Shown here piece after piece: positions 6,808 through 14,263 of a stretch of 41,205 nucleotides of DNA. How positions within the stretch are numbered: position 1 is the stretch's first letter; the number at the start of each line of letters is the position of its first letter. The notes under the pieces are model-generated. The model had not been told where the DNA came from. It searched no databases and worked only from the letters and a program-made list of their open reading frames with translations. Position numbers and translations under genes: made by a program. The stretch is from the NCBI GenBank assembly GCA_017640605.1, contig JAEPQH010000024.1, positions 1-41,205 of the forward strand, read 5' to 3'. This DNA comes from Balneolaceae bacterium. GTDB lineage: Bacteria > Bacteroidota > Rhodothermia > Balneolales > Balneolaceae.

Positions 6808-8097
6808 CTACGTCTTGGCAATAAAGTTATAATCGCGGATAAACTGACGGTTCGGAATTACGCCGTCTTCATCATCAGAATATTCCGGTTTGATGCGCTT
6901 CAGAAAATACATCTCGACCTTACCAATGTTTCTGGCTTCAATTTCGCCTCGTGGTTCGCACTCAAAAAAGTCTTTCACGCGCTCATAGGTCGATTGTGAA
7001 ATGTTGATGGAGTTATTGGCAGAGTTCTGCTCCATCCTTGCCGCAAGATTTACAGCAGTTCCCCAAACATCATAGGCAAAGCGTTTTTTACCAATCACTC
7101 CAACTACCGATTCGCCGGTATTGATGCCTATGCGTAGCGGGAAATAGGGGATAGATTCCGGCAAAGCACGTTCCAATTGCTCCACAAACGAGCGCATTTT
7201 TAGAGCAGCTAACACCGTGTCGATGGGATGTGTTTTATTCCGCTCAGGAATACCTCCGGCCGCCATATAACTGTCGCCAATGGTTTTGATTTTAATAATC
7301 CCGTGTTGCTCTACAAAAAGATCAAATTTGTCGAAGTAAAAGGAGAGACTTTCAATGAGTTTTTCCGGGTTTAAATCGGGCACAATGCGGCTGAAGTCGT
7401 GGAAGTCGGTAAACATAAAGGTAGCGTCTTCATACCGCTCGGGAGTTACCGTGCCATACGCCAACAAACTTTCGGCCACTTTTTTGGGGAAGATATTCTG
7501 CAACAGATCTTCATACTCGCGTTTGGTAATCTCCAATTCCTGATTGGAAGCATTTAACCCATGCTGTACTCGTTCGAGCTGTGCATTTTGGCCTAGCGCG
7601 TTTTTATACGTCGAAACTAAGAGATTTACAAGGTGCGAATAATCGGCTTTAATCTGATATGTTTTCCCTTCAATTCGAACAGGAACTGTTTCTTTCACAT
7701 CCGAGACCGCCACAGGATTATGGAGCAATTCGTCTACTTTAGCAAAAAGCGTTTCATCGTCGTAAGGTTTGGTGATGTAATTGTCGGCTCCAACTTCAAT
7801 TCCTTTTAACAAACTCTCGGTTTGAATGCGCGAAGTGACCAAGATCACGGGAATCTTCCGAAATTTTTTGTCGCTCTTTATTTTCTGGCACAATTCGTAG
7901 CCGTCCATCACGGGCATTTCAACATCACTAATAACAAGATCAGGGTACTCATCTTGTAGGATGTCCCAGGCATCGGCACCATTTTGTGCGGTAAGCACTT
8001 CATAGCCTTTTTTCAATAATTTATGCCGGGTGATGGTTACCAGTGCCGGATAATCATCTACAATTAAAATGCGAGGTGTGGTTTGTAACATGGCCAA
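6808..8097 (-). CDS. Response-regulator receiver fused to class III adenylate cyclase
   Basis: A 429-aa cytosolic signalling protein. Residues 8-126 are a receiver domain with acidic pocket D14/D15, phospho-acceptor D58 (SDVEMPVMDG), T88 and K110. A linker of about 70 residues, probably coiled coil, leads to a class III cyclase domain (about 200-400). The catalytic set looks complete: metal aspartates D231 (FTDF) and D275 (IGDS), purine-specifying K271 and D343, and transition-state N350 and R354. The Lys/Asp pair argues for ATP rather than GTP as substrate. Phosphorylation by an unlinked histidine kinase would tune cAMP output; no kinase is adjacent and the partner is unknown. The gene is divergent from the DAHP synthase gene and 87 bp upstream of uvrA. 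Confidence 0.92.
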   Translation of the reverse strand: MAMLQTTPRILIVDDYPALVTITRHKLLKKGYEVLTAQNGADAWDILQDEYPDLVISDVEMPVMDGYELCQKIKSDKKFRKIPVILVTSRIQTESLLKGIEVGADNYITKPYDDETLFAKVDELLHNPVAVSDVKETVPVRIEGKTYQIKADYSHLVNLLVSTYKNALGQNAQLERVQHGLNASNQELEITKREYEDLLQNIFPKKVAESLLAYGTVTPERYEDATFMFTDFHDFSRIVPDLNPEKLIESLSFYFDKFDLFVEQHGIIKIKTIGDSYMAAGGIPERNKTHPIDTVLAALKMRSFVEQLERALPESIPYFPLRIGINTGESVVGVIGKKRFAYDVWGTAVNLAARMEQNSANNSINISQSTYERVKDFFECEPRGEIEARNIGKVEMYFLKRIKPEYSDDEDGVIPNRQFIRDYNFIAKT

Positions 8098-9591: not shown

Positions 9592-9625
9592 TCAGTAAGG
9601 GCGCAAGGCATTGCGCCCTTACTGA
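9592..9625. repeat. Perfect 15-bp palindromic hairpin downstream of the DAHP synthase gene
   Basis: TCAGTAAGGGCGCAA and TTGCGCCCTTACTGA are exactly inverted around a GGCA loop. It could stop transcription of the upstream gene, but no T tract follows on either side. It resembles dispersed GTAGGGGCGC-type palindromes found in many genomes, so a mobile REP-like element is equally likely. Confidence 0.6.
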
Positions 9626-9797
9626 AGTATGTCGACATGGTTGAGTTGACCTCACAACTTCAACTCTGCCAAATCTGACACGGTACTCTGTCGCCTCGGC
9701 AATCCCCGCTGTCAACCTTTCAAACAATAAATTACGAGTCTGAAAAAAATTCATTTTCAGATTGTCGGGATGTCATACGCTTCGCTCACACACCAAA
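9626..9797. other. Non-coding upstream region of the hsp20 gene
   Basis: No gene is seen. Two inverted repeats are visible: GAGTTGA/TCAACTC near 9654-9677 and TCTGAAAA/TTTTCAGA (9739-9761, 7-nt loop). The second lies 36 bp upstream of the sigma-54 -24 element, a position where an activator site or a remnant terminator could sit. Neither can be assigned from sequence alone. Confidence 0.4.
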
Positions 9798-9813
9798 TGG
9801 CACGTCCGTTGCA
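9798..9813 (+). promoter_or_regulatory. Sigma-54 (RpoN) -24/-12 promoter of hsp20
   Basis: TGGCACG-TCCG-TTGCA matches the RpoN consensus TGGCACG-N4-TTGCW at every position, with GG and GC separated by exactly 10 bp. Transcription would start near 9823-9825, giving a leader of about 55 nt before ATG 9878. It is on the right strand and directly upstream of hsp20. I found no second match to this motif in the window. Confidence 0.75.
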
Positions 9814-9877
9814 TTATTAGTAGTGAATTTGATTCACAAACATTCTAACTAATAATAAAGACAACGAGAGGTTCATT

Positions 9878-10329: not shown

Positions 10330-10364
10330 GCCGAGGCCTGTGGATAGGGTCTCGGCTCTTTTTT
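10330..10364 (+). terminator. Intrinsic terminator of hsp20
   Basis: GCCGAGGCC and GGTCTCGGC pair (9 bp, one G-U) around a 9-nt loop, followed by TCTTTTTT. It lies 23 bp after the hsp20 stop. Confidence 0.85.
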
Positions 10365-14169: not shown

Positions 14170-14263
14170 GAAATAAATATTAGATGATTGAAGAGTAATG
14201 AAATTATATGAATATGGATAGGATAAAGTTGATGATTTCAACAATTCTGCAATTCCGTCAGTA

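Follow-up and report, generated by a model that had tools for sequence, protein, structure and literature searches.

A conserved sigma-54 promoter upstream of hsp20 in Balneolaceae, its sharing with other chaperone genes, and a candidate activator

Results

Genes and features at the hsp20 locus

The window analyzed here is the whole stretch of 41,205 nucleotides from a Balneolaceae bacterium (contig JAEPQH010000024.1 of assembly GCA_017640605.1), in which the gene hsp20 encodes a small heat-shock protein. The features of this locus, together with the enhancer-binding proteins (EBPs) of the genome, are presented in Table 1. The sequence-only reading had taken the element TGGCACG-TCCG-TTGCA for an RpoN site with exact spacing, on the proper strand and 64 nt before hsp20, and this description was confirmed, the gap between the element and the ATG being 9814-9877. 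The element has the arrangement that defines a sigma-54 promoter, in which 10 nt separate GG at -24 from GC at -12, upstream of a gene and on its coding strand. The terminator behind hsp20 suggests that its transcript covers a single gene.

Table 1. Features of the hsp20 locus in the window and enhancer-binding proteins encoded in the genome
Feature	Position	Strand	Description
Candidate enhancer dyad A, CTGCCAAATCTGACA	9666-9680		weakest match; relatives prefer ~117 nt upstream of the promoter
Candidate enhancer dyad B, CTGTCGCCTCGGCAA	9688-9702		relatives prefer ~96 nt upstream
Candidate enhancer dyad C, CTGTCAACCTTTCAA	9709-9723		relatives prefer ~74 nt upstream
Candidate enhancer dyad D, CTGAAAAAAATTCAT	9740-9754		within the 9739-9761 dyad; relatives prefer 43-44 nt upstream, the commonest position
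Candidate enhancer dyad E, TTGTCGGGATGTCAT	9762-9776		relatives prefer 21-22 nt upstream
Sigma-54 (-24/-12) promoter, TGGCACGTCCGTTGCA	9798-9813	+	GG-N10-GC spacing exact; sole strict match in the window
Predicted transcription start region, GTGAATT	9823-9829	+	predicted from a conserved block in relatives
hsp20, small heat-shock protein, 142 aa	9878-10306	+	PF00011, E=1.5e-26; orthologues in 90/92 family genomes
Intrinsic terminator 3′ of hsp20	10330-10364	+	10-pair stem with 7 G-C pairs, T-rich tail
EBP-A			REC-AAA-HTH8; beside folD
EBP-B	contig C25, ~20.8-22.1 kb	-	AAA-HTH8 (AAA+/Fis-HTH), no receiver; directly 5′ of lptE
EBP-C			REC-AAA-HTH8; near apparent flagellar genes

Several other elements were seen around the gene. 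The stretch from the DAHP synthase gene to the dyad array contains a perfect inverted repeat of 14 bp (CAGTAAGGGCGCAA/TTGCGCCCTTACTG, 9593-9624) that lacks a T run, and the minus strand at 6808-8097, near the stress genes hsp20, htrA and clpB, encodes a protein that joins a response regulator to an adenylate/guanylate cyclase domain (PF00072 + PF00211). The hsp20 mRNA could form the short hairpin GTGAATTTGATTCAC at its predicted 5′ end (9823-9837), as it also could in the relative G002, while the hairpin is absent in G001; a second, weak hairpin lies near the hsp20 start. An RNA thermometer was considered and rejected: Rfam gave no match, and the predicted 5′ hairpin leaves the start codon uncovered.

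Within the window, the pattern TGGCAYN5TTGCW occurs once, versus 0.04 matches expected from dinucleotide shuffles. Across the whole genome, the exact form TGGCACN5TTGC was found 7 times with about 7 expected (10 fixed bases, 3.74 Mb, both strands), and TGGCAYN5TTGCW 8 times, versus 7 for the reversed pattern. Genome-wide counts were dropped as evidence because this frequency is at chance level, and exact matches within ORFs (in C8, C23 and C26, and at C14:120341) were discarded as chance. Thus, the position and conservation of the site carry the evidence, and not the match itself.

Conservation of the hsp20 promoter in Balneolaceae

The upstream regions of 90 hsp20 orthologue copies from 89 Balneolaceae genomes were compared. 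TGG and TTG at the right spacing were present in all 90, between 39 and 69 nt 5′ of the start codon, and the last promoter pair was GC in 76% and GT in 21% of them. A consensus score of at least 12 out of 15 was reached by 90/90 orthologue upstream regions, compared with 9.5% of dinucleotide shuffles and 26/308 control upstream regions; at a score of at least 14 out of 15, the corresponding values were 68/90, 0.3% and 1/308. Judged by this comparison, the site at 9798-9813 is genuinely a sigma-54 promoter and has been retained in about 20 Balneolaceae genera. In addition, a G[TCA]GA[AG] block stands 9-10 nt 3′ of the 16-mer in 48/90 relatives (at most 0.6% of shuffles for any one offset), in the position where a sigma-54 transcript should start, from which we infer the predicted start of hsp20.

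The proposal of an RpoN site had been made dependent on the presence of rpoN and of enhancer-binding protein genes in the genome, and on the retention of the motif in relatives. Besides the conserved motif, we found rpoN itself (PF04552, E=1.3e-54; also detected in 84/92 family genomes) and three full PF00158 proteins. One genome of the family, G082 (98% complete), gave no rpoN match and still has the promoter motif in its hsp20 upstream region (L131); this is probably an assembly gap, with natural loss also possible. A sigma-54-like site, TGGCACGATTATTGT, was also seen just 5′ of the DUF3109-rpoN pair (G000:C10:75959-75973, minus strand; near 9960 in L159), overlapping a TATATTTG box, and rpoN may thus regulate itself.

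Control by sigma-A, sigma-32 or HrcA is the common mode for heat-shock genes, and with a genome-wide motif count at chance, the site could be fortuitous and hsp20 driven in the usual way. We regard this as extremely improbable. The sigma-54 motif is kept with fixed spacing in 90/90 upstream regions, in none of which was a CIRCE element or a sigma-32-like site found. HrcA (PF01628) was detected in 0/92 family genomes by searches whose controls worked, and the search of Rfam was likewise negative. As for a sigma-A promoter, TAnnTTTG occurred in 8/90 upstream regions (4.6 in shuffles) at scattered, non-conserved positions, and this candidate was rejected. hsp20 therefore has neither the combination of hrcA and a CIRCE operator that marks an HrcA/CIRCE regulon nor the sigma-32 promoter that marks a sigma-32 regulon.

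A phased array of dyads upstream of the promoter

The regions upstream of the hsp20 promoters are rich in a 15-bp dyad (YTGWM-N5-KWCAR, loosely scored), with 2.9 copies per region versus 0.34 in base-shuffled sequence. In relatives, these dyads prefer distances of about 21, 43, 74, 96 and 117 nt from the -24 box. The copies in the window are imperfect, the strict pattern being matched by the one at 9709 alone. Their starts are separated by steps of 22, 21, 31 and 22 bp, which is about 2, 2, 3 and 2 helical turns, so the dyads would face one side of the DNA.

A single, longer dyad, TCTGAAAA-N7-TTTTCAGA at 9739-9761, had been suggested by the sequence-only reading as the site of the activator. 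This dyad does cover the fourth site of the conserved array, but its long arms are lost in most relatives, which keep the shorter 15-bp dyad CTGA-N7-TCA(T/G); this lies at 9740-9754 in the window and belongs to a set of five. By pattern and conserved position, the five phased candidate dyads would provide the upstream activator site that belongs to a sigma-54 promoter.

Sigma-54 promoters at other chaperone genes

Within the genus, motif matches stand directly 5′ of hsp20, a second hsp20 (hsp20-2), grpE and a GroES-like gene; hsp20-2 lies directly 5′ of dnaK, and grpE directly 5′ of dnaJ. Across Balneolaceae, TGGCAT-N5-TTGC precedes grpE(-dnaJ) in 28/28 readable loci, and TTGGTA[CT]-N5-TTG[CT] sites were found before groES in 31/31 loci, although in one of these (L190) the best-scoring match is located farther upstream and the TTGGTAC site comes after it. 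At the dnaK-linked hsp20-2, the site is perfect not only in the genus but also in G042 and G050. A further Hsp20 group, with 44-48% identity to the Hsp20 of the window, has such sites about 60-125 nt 5′ of the start codon in most of 20 copies. As an internal negative control, more distant Hsp20 paralogues without dnaK linkage showed no properly placed site in 18/18 cases. The promoters at grpE-dnaJ, groES(L) and dnaK are those by which a Bacteroidota sigma-54 chaperone regulon is recognized. RpoN control of hsp20, as first proposed, is supported, while the view of hsp20 as an odd single gene is not, its promoter being one of several at chaperone genes.

The array of dyads is not present at every target, since the groES promoters have few TGWCA elements upstream. 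At clpB in the window, a dyad of the hsp20 type (CTGCAATTCCGTCAG, 14247-14261, plus strand) lies about 60 nt upstream, with no clear -24/-12 box after it. In two or more species of the genus, a separate sigma-54 promoter was also seen for a divergent second GroES-like protein (PF00166), encoded from G000:C14:53164 onward (L158:4165-4536).

EBP-B as the candidate activator

Three true EBPs are encoded in the genome. In EBP-B, the Walker A motif and the GAFTGA loop, the latter being what a sigma-54 promoter needs of an EBP in the genome, are intact, the HTH end is well conserved and the linker is variable. An EBP-B orthologue is present in 12/12 sampled relatives, and EBP-B is the sole one of the three with this distribution. 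In G079, G089 and G090, no other EBP was detected; these genomes are 89-96% complete, and another EBP may have been overlooked. G089 and G090 belong to one genus, and the agreement of these two separate assemblies makes a gap less likely. G084 and G088 have EBP-B and EBP-C only. All five of these genomes keep the hsp20 promoter, and G089 and G090 keep the grpE promoter too. By elimination among the EBPs, EBP-B is most likely the activator, and we propose it as the best candidate for the hsp20 promoter.

With three true EBPs in the genome and EBP-A orthologues in many relatives, sigma-54 control might also be correct with another activator, either EBP-A or a lineage-specific EBP, perhaps acting jointly with EBP-B. 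This is, in our judgment, distinctly unlikely, because no EBP-A orthologue was detected in the five genomes named above, all of which have the hsp20 promoter, whereas EBP-B occurs in 12/12 relatives, and EBP-C adjoins apparent flagellar genes.

The order EBP-B followed by lptE is kept in Balneolaceae and Rhodothermia, and also at some loci of Marinimicrobia, Bacteroidales and Prevotella. Named relatives of the EBP-B protein belong to Balneola, Gracilimonas, Fodinibius and Rhodohalobacter, and from these the family was judged to be Balneolaceae. An adjacency of groESL and EBP-B, considered for Flavobacteriia, is not proposed here: among 80 EBP-B loci, which name no Flavobacteriia, groESL was beside EBP-B in none. 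The AlphaFold model of EBP-B, with a mean pLDDT of 47, is too poor to tell how stress is sensed.

Discussion

On the strength of the comparative sequence data, we consider it quite probable that hsp20 is transcribed by sigma-54 through a dyad-bound EBP, most likely EBP-B, and that this control is shared with the main chaperone genes. RNA polymerase with sigma-54 would transcribe hsp20 from 9798-9813, with a start near 9824, and an AAA+ EBP, most likely EBP-B, positioned on the phased 15-bp dyads (9666-9776), would open the complex. The same machinery would serve grpE-dnaJ, groES(L), hsp20-2-dnaK and the GroES-like gene. Protein-folding stress would be the signal. Since EBP-B has no receiver domain, its activity must be set otherwise; a free chaperone or another partner protein could do this, for instance, or an envelope signal.

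EBPs of the PspF type have no receiver and consist of an AAA+ domain from the N-terminus, with the GAFTGA loop, and a Fis-type HTH. EBP-B resembles them in the AAA+ domain from the N-terminus, the Fis-type HTH and the GAFTGA loop, and differs from them in that a long linker of variable sequence joins its AAA+ and HTH parts and no PspA-like partner was identified. In Myxococcus xanthus, the heat-shock gene lonD is activated by an NtrC-type regulator (HsfA/HsfB). HsfA possesses a receiver domain and is paired with a kinase, and EBP-B differs in having neither.

Bacteroidota are already known to have a sigma-54 chaperone regulon (PMC9723704, PMC12316311). In Flavobacterium psychrophilum, start-site mapping in 2021 placed sigma-54 boxes (SM4) before groESL, dnaK, grpE-dnaJ, lon, htpG and clpB, and the study left open which activator is responsible, the genome having three PF00158 proteins (PMC9723704). 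Sigma-54 promoters at groES(L), dnaK and grpE-dnaJ are common to the SM4 regulon and Balneolaceae, and the genome studied here likewise encodes three PF00158 proteins. The two cases differ in that the starts are mapped in F. psychrophilum and predicted only in Balneolaceae, and in that hsp20, which is not in the table shown there, is included in Balneolaceae, along with a dyad array and a candidate activator (PMC9723704). In a survey of 2025, the predicted sigma-54 promoters of Bacteroidota and Planctomycetota showed an enrichment for the GroEL, GroES, IbpA/Hsp20, GrpE, DnaJ and DnaK groups; this survey gives phylum-level statistics of a matrix search, does not mention Balneola and names no operator or activator (PMC12316311).

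A sigma-54 promoter at a small heat-shock gene, like that of hsp20 here, has also been reported for E. coli ibpB, where it is added to sigma-32 control (PMC4370416). In Balneolaceae, by contrast, neither a sigma-32-like site at hsp20 nor HrcA was found, and the promoter type of hsp20 is common to the main chaperone genes.

Whether the response is one to heat deserves consideration. The promoters could be sigma-54 dependent while EBP-B answers envelope or LPS-transport stress, with the chaperones as one branch of that response. The place of EBP-B directly 5′ of lptE, with the wide conservation described above, would fit, as would the sigma-54 genes of F. psychrophilum, some of which have envelope functions and whose induction was seen on blood agar and under osmotic stress (PMC9723704). 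The targets found here, however, are the cytoplasmic chaperones DnaK, GrpE, DnaJ, GroES and Hsp20, and we find the envelope explanation rather unlikely.

Returning to EBP-B as activator of the chaperone genes, its relatives extend from Balneolaceae to Bacteroidales, Marinimicrobia and Ignavibacteria and often lie beside lptE. We tentatively suggest, as a proposal that could well prove wrong, that EBP-B is the dedicated activator of the Bacteroidota sigma-54 chaperone regulon, through which the proteostasis response would run by an ATP-driven sigma-54 activator and not by sigma-32 or HrcA.

The papers that we found contain no description of chaperone control in Balneolaceae. New here are the depth at which the regulon is conserved in this family, a candidate operator of five phased dyads and a candidate activator, and the question left by F. 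psychrophilum, namely which of three EBPs drives the chaperones, becomes a question about a single gene, EBP-B. With common machinery at the chaperone genes, sigma-54 would be a main chaperone controller of the HrcA-less Balneolaceae, and, instead of coupling the chaperone to another stress as the sequence-only reading had it, the sigma-54 system itself may be their main proteostasis response.
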